From Hippea alviniae EP5-r (GTDB taxonomy: Bacteria; Campylobacterota_A; Desulfurellia; Desulfurellales; Hippeaceae), in NCBI RefSeq assembly GCF_000420385.1, contig NZ_ATUV01000001.1, forward strand, positions 372,001 to 436,000: DNA of 64,000 bases, given 5' to 3'. The translations under genes and the position numbers were made by a program. Each line of letters opens with the position of its first letter. Position 1 is the stretch's first letter. The notes beneath the pieces are model-generated. The model was not told the origin of the DNA. It worked only from the letters and a program-made list of their open reading frames with translations, and ran no database searches. Of this stretch, positions 37,230 to 47,887 are shown in pieces.

Positions 37230-37777
37230 TGGTATTTAAGATAATCATTACAGGGAGTTTTAATGCTGGTAAGACGGAGTTTATAAAACAGATTAGTGAG
37301 ATTGAGCCTATAACAACAGATAAACCTGTATCAGAAAAAGAGCTCAAGGAGATAAAGGCATTTACAACCGTTGCAATGGATTTTGGAAGATTAACCGTTG
37401 ATGAAGATATAGTAATTCATCTGTATGCAACGCCAGGGCAGGAGAGATTTGATTTTGTCTATCCGTTGCTAATAAAGAATGCATTGGCTCTTATCATACT
37501 TGCGGATATAACAGATGAGAAGTCTATTAGAGCCGTTCCAACTTACTATAAAAAGTTTCACAGCATAAAGAGACTTCCGACGGTAATAGCTTTGACAAAG
37601 GTTGACTTAGGTAGTGCCGTTGATGATGCCTTGATAGATGAAGTGTTTAAAGAGTTACCTAAGGATGTTCCTGTTCTAAGGATTAATGCAACTAATAAGG
37701 AAGATGTGAAGAGAGCCGTGCTTTTTGCGCTTGAACAGCTTGAGGAAGATGAAGATGAAGGCAGAGAGATAGTTTAA
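37229..37777 (+). CDS. Small Ras-like GTPase (MglA/COG2229-type)
   Basis: A 182-residue GTPase. G1 is GSFNAGKTEF, the switch I Thr is in FTTVAMDFG, G3 is ATPGQERF (Ala where Ras has Asp, as in this prokaryotic subfamily), G4 is ALTKVD and G5-like is INATNKE. Such proteins act as polarity or signalling switches with partner proteins. ATG 37229 overlaps the upstream stop (TGATG). It converges with the ferredoxin-like gene, overlapping by 4 bases. The acidic C-terminal tail is EEDEDEGRE. Confidence 0.85.
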   Translation: MVFKIIITGSFNAGKTEFIKQISEIEPITTDKPVSEKELKEIKAFTTVAMDFGRLTVDEDIVIHLYATPGQERFDFVYPLLIKNALALIILADITDEKSIRAVPTYYKKFHSIKRLPTVIALTKVDLGSAVDDALIDEVFKELPKDVPVLRINATNKEDVKRAVLFALEQLEEDEDEGREIV

Positions 37778-38766
37778 ATATTTTTTATAAAGTCTATTAA
37801 GCTTTTTTTCTTTTGCTCTCTTGATTTACAGGCAGGACATAATCTATCGTTTGAAGTTGAATAGAACGGTTTTTTACACGATTCACATATTTTCTGTTTT
37901 ATCTCAATCAGTATAAGCGGCTTCAAGGTAAGACTCTTTGTGGTTGCAGGCTTAATCTTAATTGCATCGTAAAGGCAAGCTTCAGTACACTCCTTACAAC
38001 CTATGCACAGCTTTGGGTTGAAAAGCACTCTTCCAATCTCTTTCTTCTCTATGAGTATTGCTTCTTGGGGACATACATGCTCGCATATGCCGCATAAATT
38101 ACAGCTGCTTCCAATTGAGATTGTTGCTATTTCTGGATATCCTAAGTCTTTTTTTAACTCTTTTTCTTTTATTTGTGTTAAGATTACCTCTCTTTTTGAT
38201 TTTTTCTTGCTTTTTGATGTTATTCTTAGCAAGTCCCTTCTTGATACGGATAAAGTTGGTATAAATTTTTTATCTGATGTGGCTGTTTTTATTTTTAGAT
38301 TGATTTCTATACCGAATGATTTTGCCAATATAACAGCTTTTTTTAGGTTATAAAAGAATAGCTTTTTTGTTTTTTTGAATTTACACGATTTGCAGTTGCC
38401 CTTGTTTATGGTGATGGTTTTTTTGTTCATCATCCAAGAAAGGAGTAGAGATTCTGTTATTCTGCTTATGCACGACACCTTTATATCTGATTGAGCAAAA
38501 ATGCAGCCAATCTCAATTTTGTTTAGCTCTTTGGTGTGGCTTAGTATATAGCTATCGTCTTTGTTTAATGTTATAGCAGGAAACTTGCAGGCAGAATAAC
38601 ATATGCCACACTCTATGCATTTTAAGTTGTCAATAGAAAGATGCGGAAAAAACGATATTGCATCCAAAGGACAGATTTTACAATCTTCACAGTTGCTTTT
38701 TTGAAATCTTTCTCTTATGCACAGGTTTGAGTCTATGCTTACTGATGATACGATGAAATCATGCAT
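37774..38766 (-). CDS. Multi-ferredoxin iron-sulfur protein with C-terminal zinc ribbon
   Basis: A 330-residue cytoplasmic protein without signal peptide. It has two N-terminal cysteine groups (CEDCKICP and [11 protein letters not shown]), a middle CKSC pair, and two regular C-terminal [4Fe-4S] motifs ([12 protein letters not shown] and [11 protein letters not shown]). The end is zinc-ribbon-like (CESC...CPAC). A basic linker ([11 protein letters not shown]) joins the halves. It likely passes electrons between redox partners, but the partner enzyme is not in the window. It is not one of the named ferredoxin-oxidoreductase subunits I recognise. Confidence 0.8.
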
Positions 38767-38812
38767 CAGACAATTTTACATTAGTTTTGGGCTTCTATGC
38801 AAGGTGTATTTA

Positions 38813-38841
38813 TTGACTTTTTTGCTTAAGATAATTACACT
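38813..38841 (+). promoter_or_regulatory. Promoter of tatA
   Basis: TTGACT (38813-38818), 17-base spacer, TACACT (38836-38841). Confidence 0.6.
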
Positions 38842-38866
38842 GTGGCAAAAGAGTGGAGGTGATGAA

Positions 38867-39097
38867 ATGTTGCCAAGCATGCAGGAGATGTTGCCTATTT
38901 TGGTACTACTTCTAATAATCTTCGGCGCAAGAAAGTTGCCAGAAATAGGTGCAGGTTTGGGTAAGGGTATAAAGGAGTTTAAAAAGTCTATGAAAGATAT
39001 TGATGAGGAAGATGATAAAAAAATACCAGTAGAACATAAAAAAGAAGAAGTTGATATGGAAACAAAAGAGAAAACAACGGATAAAGAAGAGGTGTAA
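38867..39097 (+). CDS. tatA: TatA/E twin-arginine translocase subunit
   Basis: A 76-residue protein with one N-terminal membrane helix ([19 protein letters not shown]), the conserved [10 protein letters not shown] hinge, an amphipathic helix ([13 protein letters not shown]) and a charged tail. It forms the pore of the Tat pathway that exports folded proteins. ATG 38867 follows GGAGGTG. An upstream in-frame extension reaches across the promoter and is not used. tatC is not adjacent. Confidence 0.92.
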
Positions 39098-39105
39098 AGC
39101 CCATC

Positions 39106-40725
39106 ATGAAAGAGAAAATTTCTCAAATACTTGATGATTTTTTGAGAAATAAAGGTGTGAAAGTAGAATATGTTGTGGAGTATCCCAAGTCTGAAAAGTT
39201 TGGCGACTACGCGACAAATATAGCTATGGCTTTGGCTTCTGTTTTTAAGAAAAATCCAAAAAATATAGCAAAAGAGATAATAGATTTTATCGGTTGTAAT
39301 GAGCTGTTTGAGAAGATAGAGATAGCAGGTGCTGGCTTTATAAACTTTTTTATAAATAGAGACGCATTTTTGAAAGAGTTGAAGGTAATATACGAGAAAA
39401 GAGATGATTATTTTAGGCCTTCTGTAGAAAAAAGATATGTTCAGGTTGAGTTTGTAAGTGCCAATCCAACAGGCCCTTTACATATAGGACACGGTAGAGG
39501 AGCAGCCATAGGCGATTCTATCGCAAGAATACTTAAATTTTCCAATCACAGAGTTGAGAAGGAGTATTACATAAACGATGCTGGACTTCAGATGCATCTG
39601 CTCGGGCTTTCGACCTTTGTAAGATATAAACAACTTCTTGGTTATGATGAACCTTTGCCCGAAGATGGTTATAAGGGTGAGTATCTAATTGATATAGCTA
39701 AGGATTTGATGGTTCAGTATGGAGATTCTCTGTTGTTTAAGGATGAAGATGAAGCTATTGAGATATGCAAAGAGAAGGCAGCAGATGTTATACTTAAAGA
39801 CATAATGGCTGTTCTTGATAAGTTTAGGGTTAAGTTTGATAAGATATTCAACGAATCCAAACTCTATAAACAGGAGATGGAAGAGAGTCTTGATTACCTG
39901 AAAGAAAAAGGTCTTATTTATGAAAAAGATGGTGCGTTGTGGTTTAAAAGCACCCAGTTTGGTGATGAGAAGGATAGGGTGGTGAGAAGGAGCAATGGTG
40001 CCTTTACATATTTTGCAAGCGATATAGCTTATCATAGAAATAAGTTTTTAAAGAGAAAATTTGATAAAGTTATAGATGTGTGGGGAGCAGACCACCATGG
40101 GTATGTAAAAAGGGTTAAATCGGCTATTGAAGCATTTGGTGTAAATCCCGACAGATTAAGGGTTGTTCTTGTCCAGATAGTTAACCTTCTAAGGGATGGT
40201 AAAAAGGTTTCCATGTCAACAAGAAAAGCCGAGTTTGTAGAGCTTGAAGATGTAATTGACGAAGTGGGTGTTGATGCAGCAAGGTTTATGTTTATCTCAA
40301 GAAGCGTGGATTCCCATCTTGATTTTGACCTTGAGCTTGTAAAAAAGGAGAGCAGTGAAAACCCTGTTTATTATGTTCAGTATGCTTATGCAAGGATAAA
40401 TAGTATATTCTCACAACTTGATGATTTTGATTTAAGCTCTTTGGAAGAGCTTAAGCTTAACGAGAAGGAAGAGATAGATTTAATCAAAAGTCTTATTATG
40501 TTTAAGGAGCTGATAAGAAAGGCACATGATGAGATAGAGCCCTATTTTGTGGTAAAGGGAGTGCTAAATATTGCCGAGAAACTGCACAAATTTTACAACA
40601 AGCATAGAGTTATAGGCTCTGAAGAAAAGATAATGCTCTCTCGCCTATTTTTGCTTGAGTCTGTAAAAACTGCCTTAAAGCTTGGCTTTGATTTAATAGG
40701 TGTAGAAGCCAAAAAAAGAATGTAG
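39106..40725 (+). CDS. argS: Arginyl-tRNA synthetase
   Basis: A 539-residue class I synthetase. The N-terminal Arg-specific domain is at about 1-90. The HIGH motif is seen as GPLHIGHGRGAAIGD, and the KMSKS-like loop is GKKVSMSTRKAEF. The C-terminal DALR anticodon-binding domain ends VKTALKLGFDLIGV. It charges tRNA-Arg. It begins 8 bases after tatA. Confidence 0.96.
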   Translation: MKEKISQILDDFLRNKGVKVEYVVEYPKSEKFGDYATNIAMALASVFKKNPKNIAKEIIDFIGCNELFEKIEIAGAGFINFFINRDAFLKELKVIYEKRDDYFRPSVEKRYVQVEFVSANPTGPLHIGHGRGAAIGDSIARILKFSNHRVEKEYYINDAGLQMHLLGLSTFVRYKQLLGYDEPLPEDGYKGEYLIDIAKDLMVQYGDSLLFKDEDEAIEICKEKAADVILKDIMAVLDKFRVKFDKIFNESKLYKQEMEESLDYLKEKGLIYEKDGALWFKSTQFGDEKDRVVRRSNGAFTYFASDIAYHRNKFLKRKFDKVIDVWGADHHGYVKRVKSAIEAFGVNPDRLRVVLVQIVNLLRDGKKVSMSTRKAEFVELEDVIDEVGVDAARFMFISRSVDSHLDFDLELVKKESSENPVYYVQYAYARINSIFSQLDDFDLSSLEELKLNEKEEIDLIKSLIMFKELIRKAHDEIEPYFVVKGVLNIAEKLHKFYNKHRVIGSEEKIMLSRLFLLESVKTALKLGFDLIGVEAKKRM

Positions 40726-40736
40726 GAGGTAAAAAA

Positions 40737-41528
40737 ATGGCTGACAATGATAAGGACAAAATAAAGGAAATTTTAGAAGGGCATAGTAAGAAATTTACTG
40801 CTGTCGAGCTGATTGTTGGTATTGTTGTTGTGCTGCTTGTTGGTGCTGGTATTGGATATGCTATTTTTAAGCTTCTTGCGCCGCCATCTGTTCCGCCTGT
40901 TGAATACCAAGCGCCAAGCAGCGAGGTTGTCCAGCCTAATCCAATAAAAGAAACTCCACCACCGCAACCCGTTGTTCCACAGGCAACACAAAACGAGCAG
41001 GCTCAGAAGGAGAGCAATCTGTCTGAAACAACTCAAACACCTAATACTCAAGAGAGCAACGAGTATGCAGTTCAAAGCGAGTCTCAACAACCAGCTGGCC
41101 CGCAGATTATAACTCCAAAAAAGCAGTCAGAGGCAACCCAAAAAGAGACAATTCCAACTGTGCAAAAGAAAGAAAAAAAGCAACCAAAACACACAGTTGC
41201 AGTAGCTAAACCAAAGCCGAAAAAAGAGATAAAACACAAGATAACAAAGCCAAAGAGTCATAAGAGCTATGCTTCTCTGAAGAAGTATGTGATATGGGTA
41301 TCATCAAACGAGAATAGAAAATTTGCCCTTGTAACAGTTTTAAAACTTAGAAAGTGCGGCCATAATGCATTCTCTAAGGAAGTAAATATAAAGGGCAAGA
41401 CATACACAAGGGTCTATGTTGGACCTATAAAGGGCTATGAAGCTGCAAAAACAGAAGCTAAAGAGATAAAGAAGCAGCTTAAACTCTCGTATATGCCGAT
41501 AATAAAAAGGTATGATAAAATACCCTGA
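40737..41528 (+). CDS. SPOR-domain inner-membrane protein
   Basis: A 263-residue protein with a short cytoplasmic start, one membrane helix (about residues 22-46), a long Pro/Gln/Lys-rich periplasmic linker (about 50-180) and a C-terminal SPOR domain (about 185-260, with RVYVGPIKGYEAAK). SPOR domains bind glycan strands lacking stem peptides at division sites, as in FtsN. FtsN-like function is plausible given the downstream lgt-mur-fts operon, though sequence alone does not prove it. It overlaps lgt by 17 bases. Confidence 0.85.
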   Translation: MADNDKDKIKEILEGHSKKFTAVELIVGIVVVLLVGAGIGYAIFKLLAPPSVPPVEYQAPSSEVVQPNPIKETPPPQPVVPQATQNEQAQKESNLSETTQTPNTQESNEYAVQSESQQPAGPQIITPKKQSEATQKETIPTVQKKEKKQPKHTVAVAKPKPKKEIKHKITKPKSHKSYASLKKYVIWVSSNENRKFALVTVLKLRKCGHNAFSKEVNIKGKTYTRVYVGPIKGYEAAKTEAKEIKKQLKLSYMPIIKRYDKIP

Positions 41529-42291
41529 GATAAATCCTAACATATTCAGCTATAAGGGAATTCATCTTAGGTGGTATGGATTAGCTTATGCAATAGGGTT
41601 TACTGTAGGCTATCTCTATCTTTCAAAAAGACTTAAAAGATTTAACATAAAGGGTCTTGCAGATGATTTATTTTTGTATGCAATTTTGGGCGTTATTTTG
41701 GGCGGAAGGATAGGGTATGTGTTAATTTACAATTTTCACTATTACATTCAGCATCCGTTGGAAGCCCTTTATATCTGGAAGGGTGGGATGAGTTTTCACG
41801 GTGGGCTTGTGGGCGTTATAATTGCTGGTGTTTTGCTTGCAAAGAAGTATGGTCTGAGTTTTTATGACCTTGCGGATGAAGCTGTGGTTATTGTGCCTGT
41901 CGGTCTGTTTTTTGGAAGAGTAGCGAACTTTATAAATGATGAACTGTGGGGAAGGGTTACAAACCTACCTTGGGCTGTTGCTTTTCCTAACGGTGGTTAT
42001 CTTCCAAGACACCCATCTCAGTTGTATGAAGCACTGTTTGAAGGTCTTATACTTTTTATCACTCTTTTTGTTTTGAGAGATAGGTTTATTAATAGAAAGG
42101 GTTTGCTATTTTGGATGTTTGTGTTTTTGTATGGTTTTTTTAGGTTTTTTATAGAGTTTACGAGGGAACCAGATATACAATTGGGCTTTATATATGGGTT
42201 AACAATGGGTCAATGGCTCTGCCTTGCGATGATGATTATAGGTGGTATAGAAATCTATTTAAGGTGGGGAAGATATGGAGATAAAGATTAA
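41512..42291 (+). CDS. lgt: Prolipoprotein diacylglyceryl transferase
   Basis: A 259-residue inner-membrane enzyme with about seven segments that adds diacylglycerol to the lipobox Cys of prolipoproteins. Signature segments are IHLRWYGLAYAIGF, GGRIGYVLIYN, MSFHGGLVG and the essential GRVANFINDELWGR. Lipoproteins it could serve include the two Pal copies. It overlaps both neighbours. Confidence 0.95.
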   Translation: MIKYPEINPNIFSYKGIHLRWYGLAYAIGFTVGYLYLSKRLKRFNIKGLADDLFLYAILGVILGGRIGYVLIYNFHYYIQHPLEALYIWKGGMSFHGGLVGVIIAGVLLAKKYGLSFYDLADEAVVIVPVGLFFGRVANFINDELWGRVTNLPWAVAFPNGGYLPRHPSQLYEALFEGLILFITLFVLRDRFINRKGLLFWMFVFLYGFFRFFIEFTREPDIQLGFIYGLTMGQWLCLAMMIIGGIEIYLRWGRYGDKD

Positions 42292-42844
42292 GAAAGATTT
42301 AATAAAGAGAAGAAAGAACGAAGTGCCACCGCATGTGTTGGAGATGGGTCTTAACATGCTTTTTGTTGAGCCTAACGATGCGGCTGAGTTTTTCAAAAAG
42401 AGTGGCGTTGTATTGCCTGTTGATATAGAAGAACTCAACGAGAAGGAGTTTGAGAGCGTTCTTTTGGATTTGACGGATATGCCGTATGATGAGAGATTGG
42501 ATAGTATCGGATTTGCAAAGCAGAACAACACATCAATGATAACAGTGTTTAAGGATTTGGTACTGGATGAGTATCAGATTTACATGTACAGGATATACGG
42601 TGCTGATGCCATTCTATTTCCTGTAAAACCAATAACATCAAAACTTACAGAGAAGGTTATTTTTATCTGTGAATCTATGGGTATGCTTCCCATACCGCTT
42701 GTTGAAGATGAAGAAGATTTAAGCAAGATAACAAGTTGGGAGTTTGTAAGAGCTATTGCAGTTAAAGATAATATAGGGATAGATAAAGATGTCTTGTTGC
42801 TTGAATATGAAGAAGGGAGTTCTCTTAAATGCTTGAGCAGATAA
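42275..42844 (+). CDS. Degenerate TrpC-like (indole-3-glycerol phosphate synthase fold) protein
   Basis: A 189-residue protein resembling a shortened indole-3-glycerol-phosphate synthase. The segment VFKDLVLDEYQIYMYRIYGADAILF (written here as two parts: VFKDLVLDEYQIY, then MYRIYGADAILF) matches the TrpC beta4/alpha4 region and keeps one Lys. The conserved ECKKASPSKG-type start, the second catalytic Glu and the NNRDL segment are missing, and the barrel is incomplete. It is unlikely to be a tryptophan enzyme. It is overlapped with lgt (17 bases) and murC (16 bases) in a cell-envelope operon, which suggests a recruited structural or regulatory role (inference). Confidence 0.65.
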   Translation: MEIKIKKDLIKRRKNEVPPHVLEMGLNMLFVEPNDAAEFFKKSGVVLPVDIEELNEKEFESVLLDLTDMPYDERLDSIGFAKQNNTSMITVFKDLVLDEYQIYMYRIYGADAILFPVKPITSKLTEKVIFICESMGMLPIPLVEDEEDLSKITSWEFVRAIAVKDNIGIDKDVLLLEYEEGSSLKCLSR

Positions 42845-44211
42845 TACAGAAGGGTTCAAAGATACATTTTATCGGTATTGGCGGTGTTGGTATGAGCTCA
42901 CTTGCCCAATACCTGCTGAGTAAAGGGTATAGGATAACGGGTTCGGATTTAAAGCCCAATGCTTACATTGAAAAACTAAAGTCCATGGGTGTTGAAGTTT
43001 ATATAGGCCACTCTATCGAAAATATAGAAGATGATGTTGCTCTTGTTGTCTCATCATCTGCCGTAAAAAGCGACAATGTGGAAGTTGTGCATGCAGAAAA
43101 GCGCAATATACAGCATATAAAAAGATATCAACTGCTTGCATACATAGTCAATGAAGAGAAGTCTATAGCTGTTGCTGGTTCTCACGGAAAAACAACGACA
43201 ACATCAATCTGTGCTTCCTTGTTGAGTAATGCAGGTTTTGATCCAACAGCCATAATAGGCGGTAAATTGAGAAATATAAATAATAATGTTATTGTTGGTA
43301 AGAGTGATTATTTTATTGTTGAAGCTGATGAGAGTGATGGTGGCTTTCTGCTTTTGAGTCCCTATATAGGTGTCGTTACAAATATTGATAATGACCATTT
43401 GGGTTTTTATGGAAATTTTGAGAATGAGAAGGTTGCCTTCTATGATTTTATGGAGAACAGCAGTTTTAAAATTTTGAATTACGATGATGCTATTATAAGA
43501 CAGTGGAGTGGTTTGGGTAAAAGTGACAGTATCTTAACATACAGTTTGAAGACAAAGAAGGCAGACATATACGCATACGATATGGTTTTGAGTGAAGAAG
43601 GCAGCATATTTAGTGTCAAAACACCAACAAGAAGGATAGAAGATTTGAAAATAAAGATAATAGGCATGCATAACATATCAAACGCTTTGGCTGTTGTTGG
43701 TATAGCTGAGATTTTGAATATAAGCGAAGAGATAATAAGAAAAACCTTGCTTGAATTTGAAGGCGTCGATAGACGCTTTACATACATAGGAAATTATAAT
43801 TCGCTTAAGGTGTATGACGATTATGCCCATCATCCAACAGAGATAAAGGCAACCCTATCTGCTGCAAGACTTCTAAGCGATAATGTGTATGCGGTTTTTC
43901 AACCACATAGATTTTCAAGAACTGCTTACCTAATGGACGATTTTGCAAAGAGTTTTAAGAATGTAAGACGTGTGTTTATTTTGGATATTTATCCTGCAAG
44001 TGAAAAGCCAATAGAAGGCATAGACTCATTAACACTTGCTGAAAAGATAAACAGGGTATCTTCAAATGCCATATATGTAAACGAGATTGAGCAGTTAAAG
44101 AAGCATTTAAATCAGATAGAAGATGAAGGTGTGCTTGTGGCTTTGGGTGCAGGAAGCGTTAGTTCGATTATTAGAAAAGTGGTAGATGATTACAAAAACA
44201 GTGCCGCTTAA
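42829..44211 (+). CDS. murC: UDP-N-acetylmuramate-L-alanine ligase
   Basis: A 460-residue Mur ligase adding L-Ala to UDP-MurNAc. The N-terminal UDP-binding motif is FIGIGGVGMSSLAQ, the ATP loop is AGSHGKTTTTS, and the central metal/carbamate region is VEADESDGGFL, with VYDDYAHHPTE later. Full length. The order murC-murB-ddl-ftsQ-ftsA-ftsZ is that of the division and cell-wall cluster. Confidence 0.97.
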   Translation: MLEQIIQKGSKIHFIGIGGVGMSSLAQYLLSKGYRITGSDLKPNAYIEKLKSMGVEVYIGHSIENIEDDVALVVSSSAVKSDNVEVVHAEKRNIQHIKRYQLLAYIVNEEKSIAVAGSHGKTTTTSICASLLSNAGFDPTAIIGGKLRNINNNVIVGKSDYFIVEADESDGGFLLLSPYIGVVTNIDNDHLGFYGNFENEKVAFYDFMENSSFKILNYDDAIIRQWSGLGKSDSILTYSLKTKKADIYAYDMVLSEEGSIFSVKTPTRRIEDLKIKIIGMHNISNALAVVGIAEILNISEEIIRKTLLEFEGVDRRFTYIGNYNSLKVYDDYAHHPTEIKATLSAARLLSDNVYAVFQPHRFSRTAYLMDDFAKSFKNVRRVFILDIYPASEKPIEGIDSLTLAEKINRVSSNAIYVNEIEQLKKHLNQIEDEGVLVALGAGSVSSIIRKVVDDYKNSAA

Positions 44212-44980
44212 AAGGTTAACGAGCATAAGACAAACTGGCGAAGTAGAAGTTGTATTTATAGAAAGCGTAGAAGAACTTGAAGGTGTTGATTTTGTTATAG
44301 GTAATGGGAGCAATTTACTTGTAAAGAACAGAAAAAAGTTATATAAATTGTCGGATAACTTTAGTTTTATAGAAAAAGAGAGTGGTTTGATTAGAGTTGG
44401 TGCTGCGACATCAATAAGGAATTTGATAAAATTTTGTATTGATAATGGTTTTGGTTGCGTTGAATTTTTGGGTGGAGTGCCTGCAAGTGTAGGTGGTGCT
44501 GTTTATATGAATGCAGGTGCGTTTGGAGAAGATATGTCTAAGATTGTTGAGTATGTGCTTTTTGTTGAAGATGGTAAGCTAAAAAGGACAGATGCTAAAG
44601 GTTTCTCGTATAGAGACTCTGGTATAAAAGGTATAATTATCGAAGCTGCACTCAAATGTAGAGACTATAAAATTGAAAGCTTAAAAAAGAAGTTAAAGGA
44701 TTTTGTGAATAGAAGGGTCAAAAACGCCCACATTAAAAACACATTTGGCAGCGTGTTTAAAAATCCTTCAAATGATAAAACAGCAGGATGGCTTTTAGAA
44801 GGGGTAGGGCTTAAAGGCTATACATATGGAAGTGTAAGATTCTCTGAAAAACATGCAAACTACATAGTATCAAACGGTAATGCTTCTGCTGATGATGTGC
44901 TGTTTCTGATAGAGAAGGCAAAAGATAGGGTGTTAAAAACTTTTGGCATTGAGCTTGAAGAAGAGGTGGTAATCATATGA
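44186..44980 (+). CDS. murB: UDP-N-acetylenolpyruvoylglucosamine reductase
   Basis: A 264-residue FAD enzyme reducing UDP-GlcNAc-enolpyruvate to UDP-MurNAc. The FAD-binding segments GNGSNLLV and EFLGGVPASVGGAVYMNAGAFG are clear. The catalytic Ser region is NTFGSVFKNP, and the C-terminal Glu is in the last part. It is short, as in type IIb MurB proteins. It overlaps murC by 26 and ddl by 4 bases. Confidence 0.94.
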   Translation: MITKTVPLKRLTSIRQTGEVEVVFIESVEELEGVDFVIGNGSNLLVKNRKKLYKLSDNFSFIEKESGLIRVGAATSIRNLIKFCIDNGFGCVEFLGGVPASVGGAVYMNAGAFGEDMSKIVEYVLFVEDGKLKRTDAKGFSYRDSGIKGIIIEAALKCRDYKIESLKKKLKDFVNRRVKNAHIKNTFGSVFKNPSNDKTAGWLLEGVGLKGYTYGSVRFSEKHANYIVSNGNASADDVLFLIEKAKDRVLKTFGIELEEEVVII

Positions 44981-45864
44981 AAGTAGCTATTGTCTGTGGT
45001 GGTGATTCAAGTGAAAGGGAAGTCTCTTTATCAACCGGTCATGCCGTATTTGAAGCGGCAAAGAAAAGTTTCGATGATGTTGTTTGTATTGAGTGTAATG
45101 ATAGCAAGGATTGTTTAAATAAAATTATAGAGTCGAAAGCTGATGTTGTGTTTATTGCTTTGCACGGTGGATTTGGTGAAAATGGCCAGATTCAGGCAGC
45201 ATTGGAGATATTTGGCATAAAGCATACAGGCTGCACATTTTCACCAAGCAACATAACGATGAATAAGTTTTTAACTAAGATGCTTCTTAAGGCTAATAAT
45301 ATACCAACTGCCGAAGCTGTGCTTATAAGGGATAAAAACGATTTGAATAGAATAGATTTTGCTCCTGTCTGTATAAAGCCCAATAATGAAGGCTCATCTG
45401 TTGGCGTAAGTTTTGCAGATAGTATTGAAGATGCCAAAAGGATTGCTGAAGCGATGCTCAAAGATTATAGAGAAGTCCTTGTTGAGAAAAGGCTAAAAGG
45501 CAAAGAGCTTACCGTCGGTGTTCTGTTTGGCAAAGCATTGCCCGTTATTCACATAAAACCAAAGAGCGGTTTTTACGATTATAAGAACAAATACACAAAG
45601 GGAGCAACGGAGTATATTGTTCCGGCAGATATTGATAATGAAATAGCAGAGCTTGTTAAACAGGTTGCAACAGAAGCCTATAAAGCTGTTGGATGTGATA
45701 GTTATGCTCGAGTTGACCTTATTCTTGAGAATAACATACCGTATGTTCTTGAGATAAACTCTATACCGGGTATGACAGCAACAAGTCTTCTTCCCAAGGC
45801 TGCAGCAGCAGACGGCATGAGTTTTGAAGAACTCGTTAGACTTCTAATAGAGAAAGCATGTTAG
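44977..45864 (+). CDS. ddl: D-alanine-D-alanine ligase
   Basis: A 295-residue ATP-grasp enzyme that joins two D-Ala residues. The N-terminal VAIVCGGDSSEREVSL carries the first substrate Glu. ATP-grasp features include IKPNNEGSSVGVS, and the metal/substrate end is VLEINSIPGMTATSL. Length is typical of the shorter Ddl group. It overlaps ftsQ by 7 bases. Confidence 0.96.
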   Translation: MKVAIVCGGDSSEREVSLSTGHAVFEAAKKSFDDVVCIECNDSKDCLNKIIESKADVVFIALHGGFGENGQIQAALEIFGIKHTGCTFSPSNITMNKFLTKMLLKANNIPTAEAVLIRDKNDLNRIDFAPVCIKPNNEGSSVGVSFADSIEDAKRIAEAMLKDYREVLVEKRLKGKELTVGVLFGKALPVIHIKPKSGFYDYKNKYTKGATEYIVPADIDNEIAELVKQVATEAYKAVGCDSYARVDLILENNIPYVLEINSIPGMTATSLLPKAAAADGMSFEELVRLLIEKAC

Positions 45865-46634
45865 ATTACAAACAGGTATCGGGTGATAAGAAAAAGAGAA
45901 AACTGCCAGACATAATTGTTGAGATAGCCAAACTTATCTTTGCAAGCTCTATTGTTGGAGTTGTTGCTTTCTTCCTTATATATGGATACACTCAATTCTC
46001 ACATAGATTTGCAGTTTTGAAGAATGTTTATGTAAATGGGAATAGTGTTCTTTCTGCCAAATATTTAGCAAGTGTTGGGATAGGCAAGTTTTATAAACCC
46101 TTAAGCAGCTATAGTGAAAGCAGGATTTACGCCAATCTTATGTCTGTTGCCTGGATTAAAAAGGCAAGTGTAGCAAAGGTTTATCCAGACTCTATTGTTA
46201 TAAATGTTGTTGAAAAAAGCCCAAAGGCGCTTGTTTATCTAAACAAAAGCATTTTTGTTGTTGATAAAAATGGAGATATTATAGGTAGGTATTCAAGCTT
46301 TTTAAAACTGCCCGGTTTAGCAAAGATATATATCAATAACAAAACTTTTCTTGATGATAAAAAGTTAGTAAAATCAGTTATTGCTTTTTATGAAAAATTA
46401 GACAAAATTGCAAAAATAAATTATATTGAGATTGTGTCAGATAGTTATCAGATTGCTTATTTGGTAAATGGCTTAAAGGTTGGTATAAATAGTTTTGGAT
46501 GTCCTGATGTTGCGCTTGTTAACTTTAAAAGAAAGCTGCCTTACTTACTGAGTATGAAGAAGAGACTTGAGAGTGTAAGTATATGTTTTAGCAATAAATT
46601 TGTTTTGAAATGGAAAAAAGGAGTTAAAAAGTGA
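45858..46634 (+). CDS. ftsQ: FtsQ division protein
   Basis: A 258-residue bitopic membrane protein with one membrane helix (about residues 26-47), a POTRA domain beginning FAVLKNVYVNGNSVL and the beta domain with VAWIKKASVAKVYPDSIVINVVEK. It links the cytoplasmic and periplasmic parts of the divisome. It lies between ddl and ftsA as in the canonical cluster, overlapping ftsA by 4 bases. Confidence 0.92.
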   Translation: MLDYKQVSGDKKKRKLPDIIVEIAKLIFASSIVGVVAFFLIYGYTQFSHRFAVLKNVYVNGNSVLSAKYLASVGIGKFYKPLSSYSESRIYANLMSVAWIKKASVAKVYPDSIVINVVEKSPKALVYLNKSIFVVDKNGDIIGRYSSFLKLPGLAKIYINNKTFLDDKKLVKSVIAFYEKLDKIAKINYIEIVSDSYQIAYLVNGLKVGINSFGCPDVALVNFKRKLPYLLSMKKRLESVSICFSNKFVLKWKKGVKK

Positions 46635-47887
46635 GTGAGGTAATGAACGAAGATATTGTTGTAGGGTTAGACATAGGAACGACTAAGGTTTGTGCCATTG
46701 TTGGTAAGAAGACACCAGAAGGTCAGATAAAGATAATTGGTATTGGTCAGGCACAATCCAAAGGTCTGAAAAAAGGTGTTGTCATTGATATGGATGATGC
46801 TGTCTCATCTATAAAGAAAGCTGTCATATTGGCAGAAAGGATGAGCGGCATCAAGATTGACAGCGTCTATACGGGTATTGCGGGTGGTCATATACGCTCT
46901 TATAACTCAAATGGTGTCGTTGCTATTAGAAACCTTGAAGTTTCAGAGTCTGATATTAGACGAGTTATTGATGCAGCCAAAGCCGTTGTTATACCACCAG
47001 ATAGAGAGATTATTCACATAATTCCACAGGAGTTTATTGTTGATGACCAGGGTGGCATAAAAGACCCGCGTGGAATGAACGGCACGAGGCTCGAAGTAAA
47101 GGTTCATATTGTTACAGGTTCTGTTACAAATGTTCAGAATATAGTGAAGTGCTGCAACAGGAGTGGACTTAAGGTTAAAAATATCGTACTTCAGCCTATA
47201 GCTTCAAGTTACTCGATTCTGTTGCCAGAAGAGAAGGATTTGGGTGTTGGTTTGATAGATATAGGTGGTGGAACGACGGATGTCGCCGTTTTTGCTAATA
47301 ATGCTATAAAACATACAGCCGTTATAGCCATAGGTGGCGACCATGTAACAAATGATATAGCCATAGGTTTAAGAACGCCATTTAACGAAGCGGAAGAGAT
47401 AAAGAAAAAGTATGGATGTGCTATATCCGATATGGTTGAAGAAGATGAAGTTATACAGATTCCAGCAGTAGGTGATAGAAAAACACGAGAGATACCAAGA
47501 AGGCTTTTAAGTGAGATAATAGAACCGAGAATGGAAGAGATATACTCGCTTGTAAGGGATGATTTTGAGAAGATGGGATTGATGCCACTTTTGGCTGGTG
47601 GCATTGTTATAACGGGTGGTTCTGCATTGATGAAGGGTGCGTTGGAACTTGCAGAGAAGCAGTTTGACCTTCCCGTTAGAATAGGAAAACCGCAGGGTAT
47701 TATTGGGCTTAAAGATGCCGTTGATAATCCTATGTATGCAACAGGCGTTGGTCTGGTTCTGTATGGCTTTGGCAGGGCAAAGGATGAAGGAGACTTAAAC
47801 CTTGACTCAAGCACAGTCAAGGATGACGATAATCTCTTTTCTGTCATCTTAAAAAAGATGAAGAGTTGGGTTAAAGAAATGTTTTAA
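46631..47887 (+). CDS. ftsA: FtsA division protein
   Basis: A 418-residue actin-like ATPase that anchors FtsZ to the membrane. The phosphate-1 motif is [16 protein letters not shown] and the phosphate-2 motif is [17 protein letters not shown]. The C-terminal amphipathic membrane-targeting helix is visible as [12 protein letters not shown]. The GTG start at 46631 has GGAG 8 bases upstream; an in-frame ATG at 46643 is an alternative. One base overlap with the region preceding ftsZ. Confidence 0.96.

Follow-up and report, generated by a model that had tools for sequence, protein, structure and literature searches.

In plants, PDX1.2 is a non-catalytic pseudoenzyme described as a regulator of a biosynthetic pathway. 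Its fold, too, is a TIM barrel. In eudicots, TSB-like is a non-catalytic paralogue of a tryptophan-pathway enzyme that was retained as a pseudoenzyme, according to the excerpted text of PMC12727527. No report of a TrpC pseudoenzyme was found in the literature searched (CC-licensed PMC text). Here, we looked at X, an open reading frame between lgt and murC in a 64,000-nucleotide stretch of Hippea alviniae DNA (the window). The features of the locus are collected in Table 1.

Table 1. Features of X and of its gene neighbourhood (positions in the window).
Feature	Position	Strand	Evidence or remark
tatA-like, conserved upstream neighbour	38717..39097	+	label by eye
argS, conserved upstream neighbour	39106..40725	+	label by eye
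SPOR-like membrane protein, conserved upstream neighbour	40737..41528	+	label by eye
lgt (prolipoprotein diacylglyceryl transferase)	41512..42291	+	PF01790 1.9e-74, window 41536-42249 (G000:C1:413536-414249)
X, putative dead TrpC-like protein, 189 aa	42275..42844	+	ATG start; ORF, PF00218, AlphaFold2, VIA-align, dN/dS
Upstream overlap, lgt end / X start, 17 bases	42275..42291	+	
X, N-terminal helical module, residues 3-32	42281..42370	+	X-family motif K..P..EMGLN.L..EP; predicted helices 3-16, 19-28
X, residues 93-112 (strand 3 end, helix 3, strand 4 start)	42551..42610	+	K93 (K110 equivalent), D94, Y100, Q101, D111
Downstream overlap, X end / murC start, 16 bases	42829..42844	+	
murC	42829..44211	+	label by eye; synteny by tblastn
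murB, ddl, ftsQ, ftsA, conserved downstream run	44186..47887	+	labels by eye

The Pfam model of indole-3-glycerol-phosphate synthase (IGPS, PF00218) matched X over residues 84-153 with an E-value of 3.7e-9 and 36.6 bits (cut-off 27), and 14 of the 15 members of X alignment A1 matched it at an E-value of 0.01 or better. When the profile of the 15 members was compared with solved structures, the best natural enzyme was TrpC from C. jejuni (6bma, 1.5e-13). Since this match spans positions 4-173, X is homologous to TrpC over most of its chain. The NCBIfam TrpC models gave 35.6 bits at best, with an equivalog cut-off of 260, and X fell below every TrpC cut-off. For the catalytic columns, 17 X proteins were aligned with 40 TrpCs, using the residue numbers of the Sulfolobus enzyme. 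In the window protein, the E51/K53/S56/P57 loop was lost, which agrees with the initial annotation that the N-terminal catalytic motif is missing, and so were E159, N180, R182 and E210/S211/G212. In the TrpCs of the set (5 lgt-linked, 15 second-copy and 18 others), these positions were intact without exception. More generally, E51, K53, S56, P57, E159, N180, R182, E210, S211, G212 and G233 are invariant or almost so in live TrpCs and are scattered or deleted in X. Within the X family (n = 17), Glu was kept in 4 proteins in the E51 column and in 2 in the E159 column, Lys in 5 in the K53 column and in 8 in the K110 column, Arg in none in the R182 column, and Ser in 0 in the S211 column; these counts depend on the alignment, and a second alignment yielded similar ones. 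The window protein retains D111, the YQ motif and K93, the equivalent of K110. The description of X as a dead TrpC thus stands as regards the loss of most catalytic residues and needs amending at K110, which is still a Lys in this protein. The Desulfurella-like members have the most TrpC-like sequences, with PF00218 scores up to 52.6 bits, and look intermediate. Judged from its sequence, X is related to TrpC but catalytically dead.

The structure of X was predicted with AlphaFold2 from an alignment of 18 sequences, comprising 5 X proteins (that of the window included, and one truncated where its contig stops) plus 13 TrpCs of named genomes; these full TrpCs may bias the model toward a barrel. 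The model of the window protein had a mean pLDDT of 91.1, a pTM of 0.88 and eight strand segments. That of the D. acetivorans protein reached 84.7 and 0.84, its last ~20 residues being poor and its C-terminal end having a pLDDT below 50. VIA-align matched residues 1-187 of the X model to residues 9-239 of M. tuberculosis TrpC (3qja) with a Z of 18.0 over 180 residues at 2.5 A, and Foldseek agreed with this match. The structure prediction that had been proposed as a check of the annotation therefore gave a confident TrpC-like model, and X is predicted to be a compact TrpC-like (beta/alpha)8 barrel with N-terminal helices. X had also been said to lack the last barrel strands. This was not borne out by the model, in which they are predicted in short form at residues 160-163, 174-178 and 184-188; the last two, five residues apart, may form a hairpin instead of the classical parallel pair. 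X mainly lacks the beta1-alpha1 loop and the helix that goes with it, together with helices and phosphate-binding turns of its C-terminal half. Within the N-terminal helices, columns 13, 23, 25, 27, 29 and 32 are conserved in X and not in live TrpC, and on helix 3 L104 is a new hydrophobic position that is Glu or Gln in live TrpC. Since the active site and the phosphate turns are lost, contact with a protein is the likely mode of X, and the X-specific N-terminal columns and L104 may form an interface.

The reading frame, the quoted TrpC segments (GADAILF among them) and both overlaps reported in the initial annotation were all recovered, the overlaps from the ORF coordinates, and corrections were needed at two points, the last strands and K110. 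A ribosome-binding-like stretch, aaggtggggaagat, lies just 5' of the X start. Near the C-terminus, a [KR]C pair shared within the genus was considered as a conserved Cys and rejected, as it arises from the murC start that overlaps X there. At the upstream end of the neighbourhood, the tatA-like ORF overlaps a divergent ferredoxin-like ORF (37774-38766) by 50 bases (38717-38766), and the tatA start is probably further downstream.

We then looked at X across the order, which we call Desulfurella/Hippea-like as D. acetivorans (CP007051) is a member, with order and families as described in the excerpted text of PMC5401914. X was present in 18 of the 19 genomes (G000-G018), and in all 18 it had lgt on one side and murC on the other; in G006 the locus is spread over two contigs. 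In the nineteenth, G015, which is 76% complete, neither X nor a PF00218 match nor lgt was detected. The lgt and X frames overlapped in 17/17 genomes with both ends measured (the lgt end of G010 was excluded, and start codons were chosen by us). X and murC overlapped in 10 of the 14 genomes measured, and touched or were at most 30 bases apart in the other 4. In G012, an lgt-like fragment with three stops (C9:3440-3625) may be a decayed second lgt or a chance match. G006, whose X is cut by the contig end, was left out of the full-length alignments and column counts.

X proteins share 28-47% identity, indicating a rapid divergence. Outside the overlaps, dN/dS was 0.10-0.15 in five pairs, amounting to four independent comparisons, with bootstrap upper limits of 0.20-0.31. 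The live, separate TrpC of the order gave 0.12-0.14 in five pairs, while lgt and murC were more constrained than X, with 0.01-0.06 where measurable. Despite its fast divergence, X is thus held, by this measure, about as strictly as working TrpC. Two outcomes named beforehand as refuting, namely homologues with complete active sites scattered in trp operons and decay into pseudogenes, were absent from the order: the 18 short copies all lay outside trp operons, and no inner stop was present in any of the 17 full-length X genes. This upholds the view that the operon of lgt, murC and the division genes carries a dead TrpC homologue as a fixed member, and the truncated form does recur beside lgt and murC in other species. 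As a homologue without catalytic residues under purifying selection, X qualifies as a pseudoenzyme, as far as sequences can tell.

To trace the position of X, we turned to the six other genomes of the class. In five of them, from two sister families, a full, motif-intact trpC stands right after lgt. In G019 and G023 the order is tatA-argS-SPOR-lgt-trpC-murC-murB-ddl-ftsQ-ftsA, so these two genomes have the operon of the window, only with a live trpC where X would be. In G020, G022 and G024 it is tatA-argS-SPOR-lgt-trpC-trpF. In the sixth genome, G021, lgt was not detected and the murC match was partial. Control loci came from a scan of a contig collection for relatives of X, in which a single-protein query returned 0 relatives and an alignment query 80 loci (4 short X, 76 TrpC). 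Among these 76 TrpC loci of other bacteria and archaea, murC was nearby in 0 and lgt in 1 (L161, Ornithinimicrobium), linkage being scored in the fetched flank with the window queries at 1e-10, which a distant lgt may escape. It is very unlikely that the lgt-linked position is shared by chance. The lgt match of Ornithinimicrobium (L161:13017-13664) lies ~3.4 kb downstream of trpC. In Actinobacteria, lgt is linked with trp genes.

Profile ranking pointed in the same direction. The X profile ranked the five lgt-linked TrpCs 2, 4, 5, 6 and 9 of 97, and the general TrpC profile ranked the same five 69, 70, 77, 78 and 79. Second-copy TrpCs ranked 60-95 with the X profile. The rank difference of the five against 75 others gave a Mann-Whitney p of 2e-4, for only two independent lineages. 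A tree of 57 proteins left X unplaced, and AU tests rejected neither X with lgt-linked TrpC (p 0.36) nor X with second-copy TrpC (p 0.66), so a duplicate of the second copy would also be compatible with the sequences. Since the trees do not settle the matter, descent in place rests on position and profile rank, which suggest that X is orthologous to the lgt-linked trpC.

Within the order, 16 of the 19 genomes proved to have a separate TrpC (that of G006 as a contig-cut piece); in G002, G007 and G015 none was found. The window genome does have a full trpC elsewhere, a point that had been left for checking; it lies in a trpE-G-D-C-F-B-like run, with trpC, trpF and trpB assigned by family models and the others by eye. 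Genes for tryptophan synthesis are present in most X-bearing genomes. In G007 (L033), which is 94% complete and carries X, a second TrpC, TrpF, TrpA and a TrpB above the cut-off were not found. This organism is possibly a tryptophan auxotroph; the genes not found there are neighbours in relatives, and the lack of a single contig could also account for the result. The second TrpC of the order (e.g. L051:6901-7638) has a short N-terminal helical region, and the Tyr of the YQ motif is found in 0/15. Two genomes of family f3 carry a further divergent TrpC of 228 aa (L092, G023:C35:1542-2225; L087, G021:C17:1647-2330) with a PRAI (trpF-like) match beside it, and in the tree these two do not group with the other copies.

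Outside the X order, a profile search of 108 genomes gave TrpC frames that were all at least 246 aa long, except for a 198-aa frame in G065. The protein, of 196 aa (L177:8399-8989), is without the catalytic motifs and is encoded beside a glyS-like gene; the genome also has a 504-aa TrpC-TrpF fusion elsewhere (L178:742-2256). By eye, this fusion adjoins a TrpG-TrpD-like fusion. G065 belongs to a Campylobacterota-like order, this label and the labels Helicobacter-like and Campylobacter-like used below being inferred from genes. Its protein was searched against 149 genomes of the order, drawn evenly from the larger group, and 144 matched. Short frames of 188-230 aa were found in 13 genomes: 10 of the 12 of family f45, the other 2 being without match, and 3 of the 11 of family f97, all from genus g114, the other 8 being full length. 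One further short frame, of 151 aa in G241, lies at a contig edge. Context was fetched for the 12 other short forms and for 8 full ones, and neighbours were labelled by eye. In g114 (3/3), the short gene follows a gene of ~411 aa and precedes an 'APWR' HIT-like gene. The full trpC of the order has such an upstream gene (413-477 aa) in 8/8 cases and the HIT-like gene in 5/8. Among the f45 short genes, four follow the same kind of upstream gene and six follow glyS. By these shared neighbours, 7 of the 13 dead copies stand where relatives keep a live trpC.

In the alignment, the short proteins of f45 and g114 have lost the same parts. Their dN/dS was 0.09-0.22 in six of seven pairs, the seventh being saturated and the G138/G206 pair showing only four changes. 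Y100, Q101, D111 and G136 (window numbers) were identical in 30/30 dead TrpCs of the three groups, and the D94 equivalent was found in 23/30. From 54 columns near-invariant in 24 live TrpCs, only 4 are kept in at least 80% of the 30 dead proteins, so a shared interface, if any, would be small. K13 and I140, common to most dead proteins, were set aside as signal, since R-to-K and L-to-I changes may follow base composition. Tree tests did not reject a single origin, either for all dead proteins (X+H+C, p 0.41) or for the two other groups (H+C, p 0.52). The count of three origins rests, then, on gene position, the dead copies occupying places of live trpC that belong to different operons, and on the live trpC in other f97 genera.

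Altogether, these results make it likely that X descends from TrpC in place and has been retained as a folded, non-catalytic barrel, most likely protein-binding. The order of events that we infer is as follows. The class ancestor would have had a working trpC behind lgt, and a second trpC, now in the trp operon, would have taken over catalysis. The old gene would then have lost its active-site loop, the C-terminal-half helices and most of the residues for catalysis and phosphate binding, and the small folded barrel would have been kept without catalysis, as a protein-binding (regulatory or adaptor) module acting via its N-terminal helices and its helix-3/strand-4 side. It is far less easy to see X as a gene in decay whose sole use is to bridge translation from lgt to murC: X overlaps both neighbours and diverges rapidly, but the dN/dS values and their bootstrap limits outside the overlaps, the lack of inner stops in the full-length copies and the confident predicted fold make this hardly credible. 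The initial annotation had instead proposed a recruitment of X to the synthesis of the cell envelope or to its regulation. X might then be a partner of a division protein, of Lgt or of MurC, for example, and throughout the order it does adjoin lgt and murC and overlap them in translation. However, the position is older than the catalytic loss, since an active trpC occupies the same slot in G019 and G023, and in the other order, dead TrpCs are found in different operons. The neighbourhood is not specific to X and, being inherited from an active trpC, it says nothing on an envelope role. Of that interpretation, the dead homologue fixed in the operon stands, and the recruitment, which we now regard as quite improbable, does not.

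A function as a non-catalytic activator or regulator of tryptophan-pathway enzymes (the TrpC that took over, TrpF or TrpD) would suit the TrpC ancestry of X and the trp genes of most X genomes, and has a precedent in TSB-like and TSA of plants (excerpted text of PMC12727527). We nevertheless think it unlikely, as G007 keeps X without any of the four tryptophan proteins that went undetected there. There is also a slim chance that the remodelled barrel has a new small ligand, which X would bind or convert, for example with D65 (strand 2) and D94. Position 65, a Leu in live TrpC, is Asp in 14 of the 17 X proteins, and D94 is found in 17/17. Yet the phosphate-binding turns are gone, no new conserved catalytic set was seen in the X alignment, and the other dead groups have the region in common only loosely. 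For the recurrence of dead TrpCs, we prefer an explanation that lies in TrpC itself, because comparable proteins persist in two groups of another order: the job retained is probably an older second function of the native TrpC of these lineages, not specific to the envelope. That native TrpC has a second, non-catalytic job and, once catalysis had gone to another TrpC or disappeared, was stripped at least three separate times and kept for it is a tentative proposal, possible rather than probable. With the same reserve, the three strippings would be those of the Desulfurella/Hippea-like order, a Helicobacter-like family and a Campylobacter-like genus, and the job might be carried by the N-terminal helices and the helix-3/strand-4 side.

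Pseudoenzymes are already known; here, what one metabolic enzyme has lost is its chemistry, a loss that apparently happened in place and on more than one occasion, and selection holds the rest of the protein about as tightly as it holds an active enzyme. Should the part that is kept be functional, TrpC, known from textbooks and popular as a scaffold in protein design, would turn out to have a hidden second role. The dead forms also supply natural shortened barrels. The locus also illustrates that gene neighbourhood can mislead, the cell-wall neighbours of X having been inherited from a live tryptophan gene.

A lead to a counterpart in H. pylori comes from gene order. In G193 and G180 (L219:7246-7566, L220), the gene for the dead TrpC has an 83-aa ferredoxin-like ORF after it and, further on, gppA/rfaC-like genes (by eye), and a figure legend for H. 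pylori 26695 places addB, HP0276, gppA and rfaC around a ferredoxin gene (PMC2984482). HP0276 may thus be the counterpart of the dead TrpC, but a simple match is made less likely by the finding that neither G193 nor G180 showed addB next to its dead copy. In its excerpted text, PMC7558524 has HP0276 among its targets and states that all selected targets are essential proteins. If both the identity and this listing are true, a dead TrpC would be listed as essential.

Compared with TrpC (PF00218; PDB 3qja, 6bma), X is homologous, has the same predicted barrel with N-terminal helices, and retains the helix 3 motif YQ, the D of GAD and the G of LGM. Unlike TrpC, it is without the E51-K53-SP loop, E159, N180, R182 and E210-S211-G212, and the dead forms measure 183-240 aa against ~260 aa for TrpC. 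PDX1.2 belongs to another family and another pathway. TSB-like is of the TrpB family, with two key residues changed and a known partner, TSA, and in contrast to X no large deletions are reported for it in the excerpted text of PMC12727527. On that same account, X and TSB-like are alike in that both are non-catalytic paralogues of tryptophan enzymes kept as pseudoenzymes.
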